This document shows, piece by piece, positions 22,048 to 32,717 of a DNA stretch of 35,495 nt. The notes beneath the pieces are model-generated. The model was not told the origin of the DNA. It ran no database searches and saw nothing but the letters and a program-made list of their open reading frames with translations. This DNA is from a virus, in the IMG/VR virus record IMGVR_UViG_3300031857_000651, positions 1 to 35,495 of that record; one strand, 5' to 3'. Both the position numbers and the translations under genes were made by a program. Positions within the stretch are counted from its first letter, which is position 1. Each line of letters begins with the position of its first letter.

Positions 22048-24264
22048 TTACTGTGCCATTCCTTGAAAGGTTGATGGGGGCATCATCTCAGGCGCTGGTG
22101 GCTGCTGCGGCTGCTGCATTAACTGCGCTGCCTGCTGCTGGGCCAGCAATGCCTGCTGACGAATCGCTTCACGATCAATATTTTGTGCGGCATCAATTTC
22201 CGCTGTACTGATCTGTGATTTGTACTTTAACTCAATTTCATACTTTTTGAGATACAAATCTTGAGCCATCTTGTCACGGGCCAAATCATCATCTAAAAGC
22301 ATTTGCTGGCGTTTTAGCTCCAGCTCGGCTGCCTTTTTCTGGATATCGGCCTGAATCGACTCGGCCTGCACCTTGGCCAAAATTTCCTCTGGTGAGGGCT
22401 TTGGCTGGGGTGGCGCTGGCGGCTGATAGTCAGCAGGGATTTGCTGGAAGTAGCTTGTCGTGTCCTTGAACCCAGACAGCTCCACCACTTTGCGCAGAGT
22501 GTTTGACAGCTGCTGTGGCGTGACCAATGGGTTTGTAGGACCAAGCTGATTCAAGATTTGCTCTTGCTTGGACAAGATCATCATCAGCGCTTGGAGCTTC
22601 TCATTGGTGTCGCCATTGCCAAGCGCAATATTAATGTTGGCATCCATGCTGGCATCCCAGAACCTTGGATCGATGGACACCCACTCATTGCGCATACGCA
22701 CCATGCGTGCTTTGTCCTGGTGCGTTGTGGCCAAGAACAAAATTCCCTTGAAGAGCTTTTTCATGCCCTCGGCCAAAAGGCGTGCTGTCAGCTCAATGCG
22801 GCCTTGGCTGGCTGATATCGTTGCGGCCACAGCTGCCTTGGTGCTTGACTGCAATGCATCAGCATTCAGGCCCATGGCCGCCTTGCTCATGCCGGTGCGA
22901 TCTTCCTTGATCTGGTCCATGTATTCCATCATCGGGAATGCGGCCTGACCCACAAATGGCGTGGACAGGGGCTGGACCATGCCAGGCGCACGCATCCGAA
23001 TGATGGCGCCTGTCTCATTGTTCAAGACATCATCAATGTTGACCTGACCCTCAACCACCGCGGTGCGTGGGTGAATGGACTGGGCCAAGCTGTCCAGCGT
23101 ATTGCGGAGAATCTCAGACTTGATCTCTTGCAAGTCGCGGGTGATGTCAAAAATAGACATCGCCTCAAGGGGACTTGTGTGTGGCTCTGGGTCGCAGGGG
23201 AAGTCAGCAAATGGGATATAGCTTGCCGGCAGATTGCGCACCACCTTATAGCTACCACCCATGCAGCAGACTTTGCGCAGCTCTGCAATGCCGTCACCAT
23301 CATAGTCAACACGCGAATAAGCCTCGATATAAAGCACCCTGCGCATCATCGGATTGGCAGCGTCATTTGTGCCAAATGTTGTGGATAGTGGCTGACGCGC
23401 CAAATACTCATCATTGCTGTCCAAGTCGGTTGAAGACAGATTCTCTTCAATCTCATCTTGGTCATAGCCCATGGCCAGCAAGTCAGCCATGGTGGCCATC
23501 TGCCGGTGGGCAATGATGGTCGAGTCGTCAAACGATCTGGCGCGTCTGTCCAAGAGCAGCTCTTCGGGTGGCACAGCCATGATCTTGATGCGGCCATCTT
23601 TTGTGATACGCTTGATCTGCACATCATGGATCATTGGTGCAGGCATAACCATTGGCTGTCCAGTTGTGGGGTCCACAGTTGTCAGCTGCGCTTCGTCAAC
23701 ATCTGGATCAGGGTAAGACACCACAATCTTGACTTCCGCGCCAGGCTCTTGCATCAGCATCTCAAGGGTCTGCTCATCTAGGCCTGTGTATTCCTCAATC
23801 CGGACCTTCTCCTCATCTTCCCACCAGAATTTGGCAATGCCGCATTTGCGAACCAGTGCATCTTTAAAAATTGCATAGCTCGTTAAAAACCCATTGTTGT
23901 CGTTTTGGAAAATGTAATTAGCATAGTCGGTGGCCTGTTGGGCCATGCGAATGTCTTCGGGTCCCCTGGGACTGAATTCAACGACATTCTCAGAACTAAA
24001 GAAAACGCGCATCAGGCTTGGCAGCATGGCCGAGACAGTGTCCCGCACCTCCATGGCCACCACCTTGCTGTTGCCTTCGACCTCATTGCCGAATAAATCA
24101 CCGCGATAGTACTCAGTCCCTTTGGCGCGTGTGGGCGACAGATCACTGTCCACATAGCTCACCGCATCGGTCAGGTCTTGCGTAATGATCGCTTGCAGCT
24201 CTGCATCGTCCATTGGCTCTGTGGCTGCAATGTCGGTGCTCATGTTCATGTTCATGTCGTTCAT
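22048..24264 (-). CDS. Portal protein, SU10/P22-like
   Basis: This 738-aa protein forms the ring at the DNA entry vertex. The N-terminal part reads SYVDSDLSPTRAKGTEYYRG, then SKVVAMEVRDTVSAMLPSLM, FFSSENVVEFSPRGPEDIRM and ATDYANYIFQNDNNGF. These match my recall of large portals of SU10-like podophages. Wing and stem regions follow. The last 150 residues are Gln-rich coiled coil (LYLKKYEIELKYKSQISTAE, then ALLAQQQAAQLMQQPQQPP), as in portals with a barrel. Several Met codons cluster at the start. I use the first, whose ATGA overlaps the 96-aa gene's stop at 24261. Confidence 0.9.
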   Translation of the reverse strand: MNDMNMNMSTDIAATEPMDDAELQAIITQDLTDAVSYVDSDLSPTRAKGTEYYRGDLFGNEVEGNSKVVAMEVRDTVSAMLPSLMRVFFSSENVVEFSPRGPEDIRMAQQATDYANYIFQNDNNGFLTSYAIFKDALVRKCGIAKFWWEDEEKVRIEEYTGLDEQTLEMLMQEPGAEVKIVVSYPDPDVDEAQLTTVDPTTGQPMVMPAPMIHDVQIKRITKDGRIKIMAVPPEELLLDRRARSFDDSTIIAHRQMATMADLLAMGYDQDEIEENLSSTDLDSNDEYLARQPLSTTFGTNDAANPMMRRVLYIEAYSRVDYDGDGIAELRKVCCMGGSYKVVRNLPASYIPFADFPCDPEPHTSPLEAMSIFDITRDLQEIKSEILRNTLDSLAQSIHPRTAVVEGQVNIDDVLNNETGAIIRMRAPGMVQPLSTPFVGQAAFPMMEYMDQIKEDRTGMSKAAMGLNADALQSSTKAAVAATISASQGRIELTARLLAEGMKKLFKGILFLATTHQDKARMVRMRNEWVSIDPRFWDASMDANINIALGNGDTNEKLQALMMILSKQEQILNQLGPTNPLVTPQQLSNTLRKVVELSGFKDTTSYFQQIPADYQPPAPPQPKPSPEEILAKVQAESIQADIQKKAAELELKRQQMLLDDDLARDKMAQDLYLKKYEIELKYKSQISTAEIDAAQNIDREAIRQQALLAQQQAAQLMQQPQQPPAPEMMPPSTFQGMAQ

Positions 24265-28047: not shown

Positions 28048-28560
28048 TTACTGCGAATTGTCTAGCGATACGATGCTGCGCTTGCGCAGTGCATCGAGCG
28101 CCATGCTGCCCAGGTCGATGTTGACCAATGGCTGCTGCTTGTCGCCATACTCATCAGGCGCCTGCTTAGAGGCCAGCCAGCGCCTTGTATCGACCCGCAG
28201 CTTGGCCACTTGCGCCTCTTGAGGGCTTGCGCTGTCTGCGATTTCCAGTGTCTGCTCTGCTAAACTTCTCCCACCTCGCGTGCGTGCGCGTGCGAGAAGT
28301 TCTCCCCTCTTGGCATCTTTTTCTACCCATTTGTAGAAACCACTGATGCTGATGTCCAAAGACTTAATCACCGAATCGACTGTCTTGCCTTGTGAGATAT
28401 GGTCAAAGACCATGGCCTCACCGCCAAAGGCGTGGATTTTCTTATTGATTGAAGACATCTCTTTGCGCTCGACAGCTGCCATGTCGCGCTGGTTGAGCTG
28501 GCGCTCTGCAATGTTGTCTGCCAGTTCACTCAAAGTCTTCGCGCTTTTCTTTGTTGCCAT
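28048..28560 (-). CDS. terS: Terminase small subunit
   Basis: This 170-aa protein should recognise the packaging site and load the large subunit. It has an HTH-like front (FDHISQGKTVDSVIKSLDIS, then ISGFYKWVEKDAKRGELLAR) and the family block ARTRGGRSLAEQTLEIADSA, followed by AKLRVDTRRWLASKQAPDEY and GDKQQ. These match small terminases I recall, in which the helix LRVDTRxWLASKxxPxxYGDK is the central oligomer part. GAGGAG precedes the ATG at 28560. It overlaps the nuclease gene upstream by 35 bases. The non-coding region just downstream is its natural candidate target. Confidence 0.85.
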   Translation of the reverse strand: MATKKSAKTLSELADNIAERQLNQRDMAAVERKEMSSINKKIHAFGGEAMVFDHISQGKTVDSVIKSLDISISGFYKWVEKDAKRGELLARARTRGGRSLAEQTLEIADSASPQEAQVAKLRVDTRRWLASKQAPDEYGDKQQPLVNIDLGSMALDALRKRSIVSLDNSQ

Positions 28561-28921
28561 TCAGATACTCCTCAATTGTTTTGATTGCATCGGCAGCAGA
28601 CCTTGCGACCACTGACCGATAACCTTTTGCATTTAACTGCAAACCTACGGCGCTTTGTTTGCTTGAGACCACACCGGCCTTGGTCTTCATCTCCACAAAC
28701 AGCGCATGAAACCCGTTTTTAGGCTCCAAGACGCACAAATCAGGCATCCCAGCTAAAACCCCCTCAGAATGCAGCCTAACGCGCTCTGAGGCCGTTCTAT
28801 CGCCTCCATTCGGTATTGCTGCGATGATCACCTCCGGATAAAACGCTCGGAAGTGCTGCACCACCTTGACCTGGTCAATGTGTTCAACACTTTTTCTTTT
28901 GCGCTTTAAGTCAACCACCAT
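28526..28921 (-). CDS. VRR-NUC domain nuclease
   Basis: This is a 131-aa PD-(D/E)xK nuclease of the VRR-NUC type. It has AAIPNGGDRTASERVRLHSE, then GVLAGMPDLCVLEPKNG with Asp61, and ALFVEMKTKAGVVSSKQSAV with Glu77-x-Lys79 and a trailing Gln. All core residues of the family are seen. Stand-alone phage members can cut branched DNA such as Holliday junctions, and the place beside terS suggests clearing branches before packaging. The ATG at 28921 has GAAGG directly against it, so a GTG two codons on is also possible. It overlaps both neighbours. Confidence 0.85.
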   Translation of the reverse strand: MVVDLKRKRKSVEHIDQVKVVQHFRAFYPEVIIAAIPNGGDRTASERVRLHSEGVLAGMPDLCVLEPKNGFHALFVEMKTKAGVVSSKQSAVGLQLNAKGYRSVVARSAADAIKTIEEYLNGNKEKREDFE

Positions 28922-29226
28922 CCTTCAGATTCTACTGCCGAGGGCTTGGCCTGAAACATGTGGCATCGGTGCTTGACATCTTTTGGGAATACGGCGAAGC
29001 CAGTTGGGCCGCACTGGTGTTCGGTCCATGTGACTGTTGCCCATCCATTGCGAATCTTGGCCTGGTCAAACATCCACTGAAGTGGTTTTGCGTTGACCTT
29101 CCTGACCTTCTCCATCAATTCTGCTGGCATTGACTTGCGCTGATCTACAGCACTGCAATGCTTGCACTCATGGCAAAAAACCCTCTCATCTTCGACAAAT
29201 TCCTTAACTGTGGATAAGCTGTGCAT
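28906..29226 (-). CDS. Small Cys/His-rich protein, unknown function
   Basis: This 106-aa protein has a zinc-like cluster near the start, CHECKHC (18-24). A helix follows (MPAELMEKVRKVNAKPLQWM), then a Trp-rich part (NGWATVTWTEHQCGP) and CHMFQ. Six Cys and several His suggest one or two metal sites. It has a good ribosome site (AAGGAAGG) at 29233-29240. Its first codons lie over two perfect or near-perfect DnaA boxes (29209-29228). No family is recognised; a DNA-binding role beside the replication genes is plausible. Confidence 0.7.
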   Translation of the reverse strand: MHSLSTVKEFVEDERVFCHECKHCSAVDQRKSMPAELMEKVRKVNAKPLQWMFDQAKIRNGWATVTWTEHQCGPTGFAVFPKDVKHRCHMFQAKPSAVESEGWWLT

Positions 29227-29452
29227 AACTTTCCTTCCTTTTGGACCATCTAATGCTCGCTTCTAATACGGAAAGCCCTATAGGAAAATTCCGCCTTTCC
29301 GCATTAGAAACTGAACCACCTTCCAAGCCGAGACTGGTCTGTGGATAAGTGGGTCTAATGACCCCACTTATCCAACAATCCCAGCCATTGTCTAATACGG
29401 AATTCCGCATTAGTTCCGCATTAGTTCCGCCTTTCCGCATTAGCCCTATCAT
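29204..29452 (-). CDS. Doubtful 82-aa open frame across the repeat region
   Basis: The frame opens at an ATG overlapping the primase-helicase stop as ATGA and stays open for 82 codons through the palindromic repeats. It then overlaps the next gene by 23 bases. The product has repeated NAE(L/R) motifs, which simply reflect the DNA repeats (such as GGTNAELMRNS and SVSNAERRNFP). It has no recognisable domain. The ATGA overlap argues for a gene, and the dense repeats argue for a cis-acting region. Both may be true, and I give it low confidence. Confidence 0.35.
   Translation of the reverse strand: MIGLMRKGGTNAELMRNSVLDNGWDCWISGVIRPTYPQTSLGLEGGSVSNAERRNFPIGLSVLEASIRWSKRKESYAQLIHS
29263..29443. 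repeat. Iteron/palindrome cluster of TTCCGCATTAG
   Basis: Four direct copies of TTCCGCATTAG lie at 29297, 29403, 29414 and 29433, and two inverted, one-base-different copies (CTAATACGGAA) at 29263 and 29392. Pairs form hairpins: 29263-29275 with 29295-29307 (one mismatch), and the near-palindrome at 29392-29413 centred on GAATTC. A 19-bp piece (29289-29307) recurs at 29425-29443. In the middle, ggataagtggg/cccacttatcc (29343-29373) forms another dyad including a perfect DnaA box (29340-29348). This is the structure of a replication origin or multi-site operator. Confidence 0.8.
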
Positions 29453-31626
29453 GTCAACCTCACCCACCCCGACTGAGGCTCATTGGGTGCAAACCTGGTG
29501 AAGATTGCCGTGCCAATGTGCTTGCGGATATAGCCTGCATCACTGCCTTTGACGCTGCTGAATATTTCGGTCCAGTCAAGTTGGTAGGCGTTTTGGAGTT
29601 CTTTTGGGATGTTTGGGCGACCAGGGCCACGGCGCATGATCACGCTGCTGTGTTGATTGATGATGGACTGGACATGCAGGCAGACCTCATCGCACTTGTC
29701 TTGGATGCGCTGCTCTTTGGCGCTGTCTTGCATGGACTGCCTGGCGGCCAATCGGTCTTGCTCCGATGACATGGCAGGGATGGCCACACGGCAGATGATC
29801 TCTTGCATGTCGCCAGCTTGGGTTAAAACAACTTCTGGGAAAGTGATGCTGTCAAACTTAATCTCTCTGAATGTTGGCTCGTATCGGGTCTTGGTCAGCT
29901 TTAGGTAGCGCTGGTTATCGTCATCCATGAAGAGCACGCCGGTGAGGGTTGCGTCTCCCGTAAATGCAGATGCACCACGGGCCATGGCGTCTGAGTCTTG
30001 GCGGCTTATTGTTTTGTTGGTATGGGTCAGGATACAGACTGGCGCCTTTTGCTGGATAAATATGGTCTGCTTAATGGCGGCAATATATGCACCAACTTCC
30101 GAGTTGTCATTCTCATTGTCAATATCCATGGTGGCATTGGCCGTGTCCAATACTAATAATGGCCTTGTGCCATTTACTGTGTGGCGCTCAATATTATGGG
30201 CAAGCCTGAGTAAATCCTTAACATTGGACCTTCTGGCATCAATAACCACAAACCATTCGTTTAGGTTATTTAAACCATAATGCTTTGAATATGCGAATAA
30301 TGTCCTGATTATCTGGTCAGAGTCTTCAGTCACTATGATTGATTTGCGTTTGTTCTTTGCGTAGATTTCGCACCCTTCAACACTAAATCCCGCCATGACC
30401 ATGCACATGGACAAAACTGCTGTGGTCTTGCCCACACCAGGCTGCCCTGCCAAGATAAAGAAAGAATGGGCCATGAACCCTTCGATCAGGTAGTCGATGG
30501 GCTTGAGGCTGGACAGATCAAGCGCCAGCTCTGGCCATGACGGGTCTGGGGTGTCGGTGGTGGCCACTGGCGCATCAGGTTTTTGTGCCTGGCTGATCAC
30601 AGCTGCAAAGTCTTCCACCGCTGACTTGCGCTCGGACTGCTTGGTCGGGGCTTCCCAGCCTGCATCCTTGGCGTATTTGTAGAGAGTGCCGAGACCTACA
30701 CCCTTGCCCTGGTGAAAGCTCTTCCAGTGCAGCTCAATGTCCTTAGTGCCGGCAAACTTCTGGCCAGCCATGGACCATGTCATCCATGGGCCAAGACCTG
30801 CCTCGCCAAATTCTGTGTGTAGCGCTTGGCCAAGCTCGATCCACTGGTCATAGTCGCAGTCTGGGCTGATAAAGTGCAGCGCCTTGACAGCGCGATCAAT
30901 GTCGCTGTCTTCAACCCTTGAGCCTAATTGGGTGAAGTCAAAGGATTGGCTCGGTGGCGCAGGCTTTGGCTCTTGAAGCTGGTGCTGCTCGATGATCCCC
31001 CAGTCTTGTAGAAGAGCATAAAGGTCTACGGCCTCTTGGAATTCACCGGCCATGGCCTTGCCAGACAGTAGCACCGACTTGCCGGCACTGTTTGGGAGGC
31101 CAAATACTTCGAGTTCCTGACCACCGCCGAGCTTGTATTTGGGCAGGACCTGGTCAGATTCTTTGGGTGGCTGCACCCATAGGAAAACATGCCTGCCACG
31201 GCCTGAGACAGAGACCTCGGTCAGCATGTTGTTGGCCTTGACATACTTGGCCATGCGCTGGATGGCCACATTGGTGGGGCCAGAGGCGTGCTTCATATCC
31301 ACATCGAGGCAAACCAGATAGTTGCCTGATGGGCTGATGATGGGGCGCTGCTGGACTAGGCCAAGGTATTGGCCAAATGGGCATGATTCCATGGCCCAGA
31401 TGTCCTCAGAGCTGTAGAGGTCTGATGGGTCGGTGTCCCGTGCCACACCTTGGCCGCTTCGCTTGAATGGAATCTTTTTGGAGCCTTGCAGGGCAAAGGT
31501 ACAAAAGACAGCATCGGGGGCGACAGCGCCAATCTTGCAGGCCACTTGCTGGCTCTGGCTGAATGTATCTGGCAGGGGTGTTTCAGTTATAGTTGACACT
31601 GAAATTCCTTTAGGTTGGGGTTTCAT
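29449..31626 (-). CDS. Primase-helicase (prim-pol / PriCT-2 / RepA-type ATPase)
   Basis: This 725-aa replication protein has three parts. Residues about 90-160 look like a primase-polymerase core: NYLVCLDVDMKH (Asp108 and Asp110) and VSVSGRGRHVFLWVQ (about 138-152). Residues about 243-325 match PriCT-2: VKALHFISPDCDYDQWIELG, then GKGVGLGTLYKYAKDAGW. Residues about 380-640 form a RecA-like helicase with Walker A GQPGVGKT (394-401), Walker B PLLVLDTAN (Asp494) and VCILTHTNK. A short winged-helix-like end follows. It should prime and unwind phage DNA. I use the ATG at 31626 (ATGA overlap with a tiny upstream frame); the frame continues back to 31818 only as a shadow of the nuclease gene. Confidence 0.85.
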   Translation of the reverse strand: MKPQPKGISVSTITETPLPDTFSQSQQVACKIGAVAPDAVFCTFALQGSKKIPFKRSGQGVARDTDPSDLYSSEDIWAMESCPFGQYLGLVQQRPIISPSGNYLVCLDVDMKHASGPTNVAIQRMAKYVKANNMLTEVSVSGRGRHVFLWVQPPKESDQVLPKYKLGGGQELEVFGLPNSAGKSVLLSGKAMAGEFQEAVDLYALLQDWGIIEQHQLQEPKPAPPSQSFDFTQLGSRVEDSDIDRAVKALHFISPDCDYDQWIELGQALHTEFGEAGLGPWMTWSMAGQKFAGTKDIELHWKSFHQGKGVGLGTLYKYAKDAGWEAPTKQSERKSAVEDFAAVISQAQKPDAPVATTDTPDPSWPELALDLSSLKPIDYLIEGFMAHSFFILAGQPGVGKTTAVLSMCMVMAGFSVEGCEIYAKNKRKSIIVTEDSDQIIRTLFAYSKHYGLNNLNEWFVVIDARRSNVKDLLRLAHNIERHTVNGTRPLLVLDTANATMDIDNENDNSEVGAYIAAIKQTIFIQQKAPVCILTHTNKTISRQDSDAMARGASAFTGDATLTGVLFMDDDNQRYLKLTKTRYEPTFREIKFDSITFPEVVLTQAGDMQEIICRVAIPAMSSEQDRLAARQSMQDSAKEQRIQDKCDEVCLHVQSIINQHSSVIMRRGPGRPNIPKELQNAYQLDWTEIFSSVKGSDAGYIRKHIGTAIFTRFAPNEPQSGWVRLT

Positions 31627-31697
31627 TTTTGATAGTTGCCATGAGTTGACTTTGACCTGGGAGTGTTTACGCGCTGCCAGGTCTTTTCTTTTGGCAT
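31623..31697 (-). CDS. Possible 24-aa basic micro-gene before the primase-helicase
   Basis: A frame of 24 codons starts at 31697, 12 bases after the nuclease stop, and ends in an ATGA overlap with the primase-helicase start. The product is basic and polar (MPKEKTWQRVNTPRSKSTHG, then NYQK). No good ribosome site is placed in front (AAGGA is about 15 bases away). The primase-helicase itself lacks a ribosome site, so this micro-frame may serve mainly to deliver ribosomes to it. It could be a leader peptide or a real protein. Confidence 0.4.
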   Translation of the reverse strand: MPKEKTWQRVNTPRSKSTHGNYQK

Positions 31698-31709
31698 GAG
31701 GTTTGGATT

Positions 31710-32717
31710 CTATTCCTTGGCCTTGACAAGACTTGGCGCAGCCACCTTCTCGCCAACTAGGTCTTCGCTGACCTCGACACCGAGTTTCAAGACAGCACTG
31801 GGGCTTTTCAGCTCCCACACTTTCAAATTGTCTTTGAATGCCTCCATGACCAGCTTCTCATCCTTCCAGAATTTTGTCTTGCGGCCTGCACGCATGGTCC
31901 AGCCAGTGATTGCTTTGCCATCAGCGATCTGAGCCTTTGCAGCAGTCTGCACGGCATCGGCCCATGCGGCCACCAGAGCTGCGTTGTCCAGCATCTCAGG
32001 GGTGACAGTGGTGTCAGGCTTGAAATCAAGCCTAGCGGTCTCTTGGACCTTCTCGCGCATAGATGGGCAGATGGTCTTGGCCTTGCAGTAGCGGCAGGCA
32101 TCCACGCTGGGGCTTGTTGGTGCATCAGCTGTGAGCGCTAATTCCGCAGCAGTCTTCAAGCGATCACCATGGTCAATCAAGTCTTGGCCAGTGACTGTCC
32201 ACTTGCTGTGGCCGAAACGGGGCTGGAAGATATGCACTGTGGCCGTGATGTGGCTGGGCGCTTTGAATTGCCTCATGGCGCCCAAGGCATATGTCAGCAG
32301 CTGCTTGTTGTCTGTGGCGTCAACGGCCACACGGCCAGTCTTTAGGTCCACGACATGCAAGTGGTCGCCATCGACCAGGACTGCATCAGCCGTGCCGCCA
32401 AGCGCTGGGTGTAGGGACTTGAGGCCTTCATCGAGGTTTACTTCGATGAGCTTCTTGCGCGGATTCTCGACCAGAGTGTTGACAAAGTCTGCGTAAAGCT
32501 GGGCCATGGCCACATGGTCCTTGTCGGTGTTGGCAGGGACTTCATGGCCAGACAGAATGATCTCAGAGAGTTCATGGATTGCTGTGCCGATGGCAGCAGC
32601 CTCGCCGGCTGGCTCGTAGGGCATGAAGGATTCGAGCCGGTATGAGCCTGGGCACTGCATGAATCTGTCGGTGCGGGATGCTGACAGTCGGGCGTGTTTA
32701 CGGGTTTCATGTTGCAT
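31710..32717 (-). CDS. Cas4/RecB-like PD-(D/E)xK nuclease (DUF2800 type)
   Basis: This 335-aa nuclease has GTAIHELSEIIL (His48), LGGTADAVLVDGDHLHVVDL with Asp111 and Asp124, then K126 of DLKTG. NKQLLTYALGAMRQF provides the Gln (139) and Tyr (143). Four cysteines (Cys22, 208, 211 and 217: MQCPGS and DACRYCKAKTICPSM) fit an iron-sulphur cluster joining the two ends, as in Cas4 and AddB. It should process DNA ends, probably for recombination-based replication alongside SSB and the SNF2 helicase. AGGAGA lies upstream of the ATG at 32717. Confidence 0.85.
   Translation of the reverse strand: MQHETRKHARLSASRTDRFMQCPGSYRLESFMPYEPAGEAAAIGTAIHELSEIILSGHEVPANTDKDHVAMAQLYADFVNTLVENPRKKLIEVNLDEGLKSLHPALGGTADAVLVDGDHLHVVDLKTGRVAVDATDNKQLLTYALGAMRQFKAPSHITATVHIFQPRFGHSKWTVTGQDLIDHGDRLKTAAELALTADAPTSPSVDACRYCKAKTICPSMREKVQETARLDFKPDTTVTPEMLDNAALVAAWADAVQTAAKAQIADGKAITGWTMRAGRKTKFWKDEKLVMEAFKDNLKVWELKSPSAVLKLGVEVSEDLVGEKVAAPSLVKAKE

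Follow-up and report, generated by a model that had tools for sequence, protein, structure and literature searches.

The window analysed here is the whole of a virus record of 35,495 bases from a freshwater phage, and it carries a 127-bp end repeat, which implies a circular unit of 35,368 bp. Its recognisable gene products include a portal, coat, scaffold and terminase, together with an Enc34-type ssDNA-binding protein, an SNF2-type helicase, a PD-(D/E)XK exonuclease and a primase-helicase; among the phage proteins searched, none was recognisable as a DNA polymerase. Downstream of the primase-helicase gene, and before a Cys-rich ORF on the same strand, comes a dense repeat array (Table 1). The primase-helicase, a RepA-like protein, contains a PriCT_2 domain at residues 312–383 (PF08707, E 8.8e-18) and an AAA_25 RecA-type ATPase at residues 434–603 (Pfam), with a weak match to DnaB_C. 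A literature search found no published description of this phage group, and an Rfam search returned no match.

Table 1. Coordinates of the repeat array and the neighbouring genes in the window
Feature	Position	Strand	Remarks
Primase-helicase / RepA-like protein	29449–31818	-	789 aa as called
C-terminal domain of the primase-helicase	29449–29778	-	~residues 681–789; proposed iteron-recognition domain
Iteron cluster I	29392–29443	-	five 8-mers; geometry universal in relatives
Cluster I, offset 0	29435–29442	-	
Cluster I, offset 8	29427–29434	-	degenerate, AAAGGCGG
Cluster I, offset 19	29416–29423	-	
Cluster I, offset 30	29405–29412	-	
Cluster I, offset 42	29393–29400		inverted
Central hairpin	29340–29374	-	arms 29342–29353 / 29363–29374; DnaA box 29340–29348 in stem
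Iteron cluster II	29263–29307	-	
Cluster II, first unit	29299–29306	-	
Cluster II, second unit	29291–29298	-	degenerate, AAAGGCGG
Cluster II, inverted 8-mer	29264–29271		35 bp from first cluster II unit
Two tandem DnaA boxes	29209–29228	-	TTATGCACA and TTATCCACA, 11 bp apart; overlap the start of the Cys-rich gene
Cys-rich ORF	28906–29226	-	106 aa; downstream of the array
Small terminase (TerS) gene	28048–28560		~0.7 kb from the array

A first-pass annotation of the sequence had described here six copies of an 11-bp motif, four direct and two inverted, along with two hairpins, a 22-bp near-palindrome and three DnaA-box matches, and all of these elements were recovered. The six copies of CTAATRCGGAA are exact and lie inside 29263–29443, on the minus strand at 29297, 29403, 29414 and 29433 and on the plus strand at 29263 and 29392. 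No further copy with up to one mismatch exists in the 35,495-base window; at the same tolerance, 100 dinucleotide shuffles contain 0.70 copies on average and three at most. The hairpins are the inverted repeat 29261–29275/29295–29309 and the central hairpin of Table 1, the near-palindrome occupies 29392–29413, and the DnaA-box matches fit TTATNCACA on the minus strand at 29209, 29220 and 29340. The meaningful unit of the array is the 8-mer TAATRCGG in a fixed geometry. Such units are grouped in two clusters, the second of which starts 136 bp after the first, and each cluster holds an extra degenerate 8-mer; the 22-bp palindrome is the last pair of cluster I units, at offsets 30 and 42.

The annotation held this dense structure to be unexplained by coding, and comparison with relatives bears it out. 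The overlapping frame of 82 codons that it mentioned, taken here as the 87-codon GTG frame at 29204–29467 on the minus strand, is broken by stops in relatives in which the array is kept, so that coding is ruled out as an explanation of the repeats. We did not find the opposite pattern, a frame under purifying selection and a motif lost in relatives, which the annotation had named as telling against its own reading.

Relatives were collected by scanning IMG/VR for the primase-helicase, which gave 80 loci; an alignment-based second scan added more divergent ones, and a search of a phage collection gave MW202879, whose protein is 52% identical. Three short loci (L005, L028 and L038) have too little sequence after the gene and were excluded from later counts. 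The array follows the primase-helicase stop codon in every locus that holds the region. Cluster I units stand at offsets 0, 8, 19 and 30, with an inverted unit at 42, in all relatives with a full array, and this geometry extends to MW202879, whose unit is TCGAAGAT. Cluster II, with units at 0 and 8 and an inverted one at 35, begins 136–137 bp after cluster I in all 78 distinct arrays.

Within this spacing the unit itself takes several forms. Type A reads TAATRCGG followed by AA, type B TAATSCGG followed by TA, and type C TAAASCGG and variants, likewise followed by TA; locus L134 has a further TAAT form. The type-diagnostic bases are correct in nearly every non-degenerate copy of both clusters across the 78 distinct arrays; the degenerate copies of type A are the second units of the two clusters. 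Most relatives, but not the window, possess an additional, type-matched iteron inside the coding sequence of the Cys-rich gene: among A loci, 26 of 27 have it in the A form; among B loci, 15 of 17 have it in the TAATGCGGTA form; and among C loci, 25 of 34 carry a TAAA or TAAG form and the other nine lack the copy. The downstream gene of MW202879 has GTCGAGGATAC. Common substitutions in so many separate copies, some inverted and one located in another gene, are what would be expected if the units were read by a trans-acting factor. Gene and array overlap in most B and C types, the first unit sharing bases with the primase-helicase stop codon, and all 55 newly fetched IMG/VR arrays of types B and C with upstream sequence (55/55) lie 1–11 nt after the matching C-terminal domain. 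In L023 and L043, which exemplify the B and C types, the TAA stop of the primase-helicase is the start of the first iteron.

Outside these phages, a scan of genome contigs returned L134 as its single match. This replicon relative (CAINTF010000009.1; 57% identity, same array geometry) resides on a contig binned as uncultured Acidimicrobium, which is either a phage contig or a binning error. A plasmid search gave partial matches confined to the PriCT-2 region, and a repeat search found no comparable array in the 3' regions of the phiHSIC and Torfinnsbu primase genes. The motif CTAATRCGGAA also occurs in contigs without the primase (L082, L086, L101, L106, L113, L118, L119, L127 and others); these were rejected as relatives. 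Their repeats, all on one strand with periods such as 30 or 36, are probably tandem repeats of coding sequence in which the 11-mer arises by chance.

Iteron type and the C-terminal domain of the primase-helicase vary together. Across 77 loci, the AUC for residues 681–789 is 0.999 and the nearest neighbour is of the same type in every case (77/77); the AAA domain reaches 0.91 and the Cys-rich protein a weak 0.66, and co-segregation is absent for the exonuclease, SNF2, the N-terminal primase, VRR-NUC and TerS (0.49–0.54). Among 197 frames from 13 whole genomes, the score exceeds 0.65 only for frames that overlap the array or the primase gene. Mosaic genes make the same point: L023, L029, L036 and L037 combine A-like residues 81–680 with a B-type C-terminus and B iterons, and L047 presents the reverse case, a diverged N-terminus joined to an A-like C-terminus and A iterons. 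At the level of single positions, residues 732 (P or A vs S) and 722 split TAAT from TAAA in 77 of 77 distinct domains, among them those of L134 and L175, a pair that seems to form a lineage of its own. The tracking of base 4 of the unit by residue 732 is suggestive, with a weight limited by the relatedness of the sequences.

Since the domain adjoins the array, the co-inheritance could partly be plain linkage. It can be argued that the array, though an origin, is read not by the primase-helicase but by a host factor or the Cys-rich protein, the C-terminal domain being tied to it by proximity: in the window 6 bp separate the gene end from the array, linkage alone would yield co-inheritance, and the Cys-rich protein might be a zinc-binding protein that contacts DNA. 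We consider this improbable, because the Cys-rich protein follows iteron type so weakly, one would hardly expect a host factor to keep pace with a phage domain across mosaic genomes, and the correspondence between residue 732 and base 4 reaches the separate pair L134 and L175. Recognition by the C-terminal domain is the reading that we prefer. Two confident AlphaFold2 models of this domain (mean pLDDT 85 and 87) display a long helix, a strand, two helices and a strand, an order of elements from which a fold compatible with a winged helix-turn-helix may be read. Foldseek found no relative of either model among solved structures.

Of the DnaA boxes, the one at 29220 is TTATGCACA and those at 29209 and 29340 are TTATCCACA; the whole window contains five matches to TTATNCACA against 1.07 expected, a number attained in 2 of 100 shuffles, and three of the five fall within 140 bp. 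The middle box is kept in 76 of 78 distinct loci, as are the tandem boxes. The position of the tandem boxes relative to the start codon of the overlapping gene differs between types, so their retention indicates a constraint on the DNA. The hairpin enclosing the middle box shows covariation in its stem: in 17 representative sequences, four pairs undergo two-sided change, with nine such cells, whereas shuffled stems have about one and none of 500 reaches nine. Stem cells pair at 90% in register, compared with 29–49% when the arms are slid.

The GC-skew analysis called for in the annotation places the array at a switch point. The detrended cumulative skew of the window has its minimum at 29470, with a range reached by none of 2000 block shuffles, and a minimum 58–418 bp from the array recurs in 14 of 14 genomes, which are related rather than independent (the window, 12 further long records and MW202879). 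Coding direction is not the cause of the switch, as the genes flanking the array in the window are both on the minus strand. Taken on the coding strand, third-position skew ranges over 0.01–0.35 for four genes between 25408 and 29226, and is near -0.2 for the three genes between 29449 and 33956. The maximum, at 23718, lies just 5.7 kb from the minimum and not opposite to it, which leaves simple bidirectional theta replication round the circle unsupported. Rather than extending over half of the circle, the skew is mainly found less than ~5 kb from the array.

The annotation left open a choice between a replication origin and a multi-site operator. If the iterons were an operator and no origin, the primase-helicase or a phage repressor would bind them and control the Cys-rich gene or the replication operon. 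In favour of this, cluster II immediately precedes the Cys-rich gene, operators commonly contain inverted pairs, and iteron initiators often autoregulate. No sigma-70 promoter-like site was found within 28700–29900, however, nor a terminator in the array region; an operator would leave the skew minimum and the conserved DnaA boxes unexplained, and iteron type is followed by no other frame that has homologues in the majority of the 13 genomes. We regard an operator in place of an origin as quite unlikely: the tests favour the origin, to which an autoregulatory role of the array may be added. That the array is a packaging (pac) or partition site is scarcely credible, for although such sites typically hold repeat arrays and the small terminase gene is close by, TerS shows no association with iteron type (AUC 0.54), the proteins searched included no recognisable partition protein, and DnaA boxes and a skew minimum would be unexpected there.

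In our view the segment 29209–29443 is very probably the replication origin of the phage, recognised by the adjacent primase-helicase through its C-terminal domain, with host DnaA as a probable partner. The computed basis of this reading consists of the conserved architecture, the concerted switching of the units, the co-segregation confined to the C-terminus, the covarying hairpin and the skew minimum; from these we infer DNA binding, oligomerisation, the use of DnaA and origin activity itself, as well as the argument from helical faces. In the mechanism that we propose, the C-terminal domain would bind the 8-bp iterons of clusters I and II, whose starts, 136–137 bp or ~13 helical turns apart, could face the same side of the helix. 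On the clusters the primase-helicase would multimerise, loading its own RecA-type helicase and primase. The tandem boxes and the box of the central hairpin would be bound by host DnaA, which might assist in strand opening or in priming of the opposite strand, as at the A site of the ABC-primosome. Given that no DNA polymerase gene was recognised, a host polymerase would then take over. The C-terminal domain and its iterons would together make up a single specificity module, exchanged as a block between phages. More tentatively, and with somewhat more doubt than confidence, we envisage a swappable domain-iteron cassette of invariant spacing, in which the 8-bp word has been rewritten repeatedly, including the copy in the neighbouring gene, residue 732 (RRG[P/A]GRP vs RRGSGRP) helps to read base 4, and the DnaA-box hairpin serves as a second, host-dependent start element.

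How does this arrangement compare with known origins? It has short direct repeats above chance near an initiator gene, a skew switch and DnaA boxes, as iteron-type origins do. A distinct AT-rich unwinding element was not found, the best 27-bp stretch being 67% AT and matched at 6.6% of genome positions, and for this reason the array is better said to work like an iteron-type origin than to be a classical member. By analogy, it may work like the alpha/crr system of P4 or like pRN1, without belonging to either. P4 alpha, whose helicase is of the SF3 type, unites primase, helicase and C-terminal origin-binding domain in one polypeptide, and the 8-bp type 1 repeats of P4 occur in direct and inverted copies. 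The differences are that P4 combines a Toprim primase with SF3, as opposed to PriCT_2 with a RecA-type AAA_25 here; that its ori and crr are ~5 kb apart, as opposed to both clusters within 180 bp; and that DnaA boxes are conserved in the present array. The C-terminal domain has no sequence similarity to alpha (hhalign probability 0.1%), and no solved fold matched it. The Toprim primase of alpha is of the bacterial type (PMC4234260), and crr lies directly downstream of the alpha gene (NC_001609 annotation), just as the 8-bp repeats here lie 3' of the primase-helicase gene.

The plasmid pRN1 and Bordetella phage BIP-1 each encode a multidomain replication protein with a C-terminal DNA-binding domain; a stem-loop origin directly 3' of the gene has been demonstrated in pRN1 and proposed in BIP-1, in which PriCT_2 is present as well (PMC4234260). 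PriCT_2 or its equivalent in the primase-helicase is common to these systems and ours, but their helicase is SF3 rather than AAA_25. What stands 3' of the gene here is a covarying hairpin that is small, holds a DnaA box and is accompanied by iteron clusters, as against the ~100-nt stem-loop of pRN1, which is devoid of iterons. A hairpin carrying a DnaA box is known from the ABC-primosome A site (Masai et al. 1990, as cited in PMC6127211). At the A site DnaB is loaded via DnaA on ssDNA; the likeness of the present hairpin to it is one of anatomy only. RSF1010 oriV (RepC/RepA/RepB', ssiA/ssiB) likewise employs iterons and a plasmid-encoded helicase, with hairpins serving as priming sites (PMC4234260). 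It differs in dividing the task among three separate proteins, where we find one polypeptide and no RepC. Lambdoid O proteins and their iterons vary and are exchanged together. The same is reported for the origin-recognition proteins and iterons of PLE RepA and ICP1 Odn (PMC8263062), and co-variation of initiator and iterons is already known. The PLE/ICP1 and lambdoid initiators are unrelated to the primase-helicase, and we found no description there of an array of fixed geometry that has a further iteron inside a coding sequence.

Replication origins of uncultivated phages are seldom located. Comparison of one window with ~80 relatives narrows the candidate origin to a few hundred bases and yields a candidate initiator domain and natural domain swaps. 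These phages offer a natural experiment in the evolution of origin recognition, in which the repeat word and the end of the protein change together and the spacing stays fixed. The long-standing question of how an initiator changes specificity in step with several dispersed binding sites becomes directly testable in this system. Our data also suggest that replicon type is a mosaic module in these phages, which may matter for the incompatibility of co-infecting phages.

The comparison bears on the primase-helicase gene model as well. The alignment with relatives is poor over residues 1 to ~60, and ~109 bp of the frame are shared with the upstream exonuclease gene (31710–32717); judged from the sequences, the true start is probably 40–65 residues further in than called. 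Two stretches between the domains, residues ~281–320 and ~401–440, are more variable than their surroundings among close relatives, which suggests recombination points or flexible linkers.
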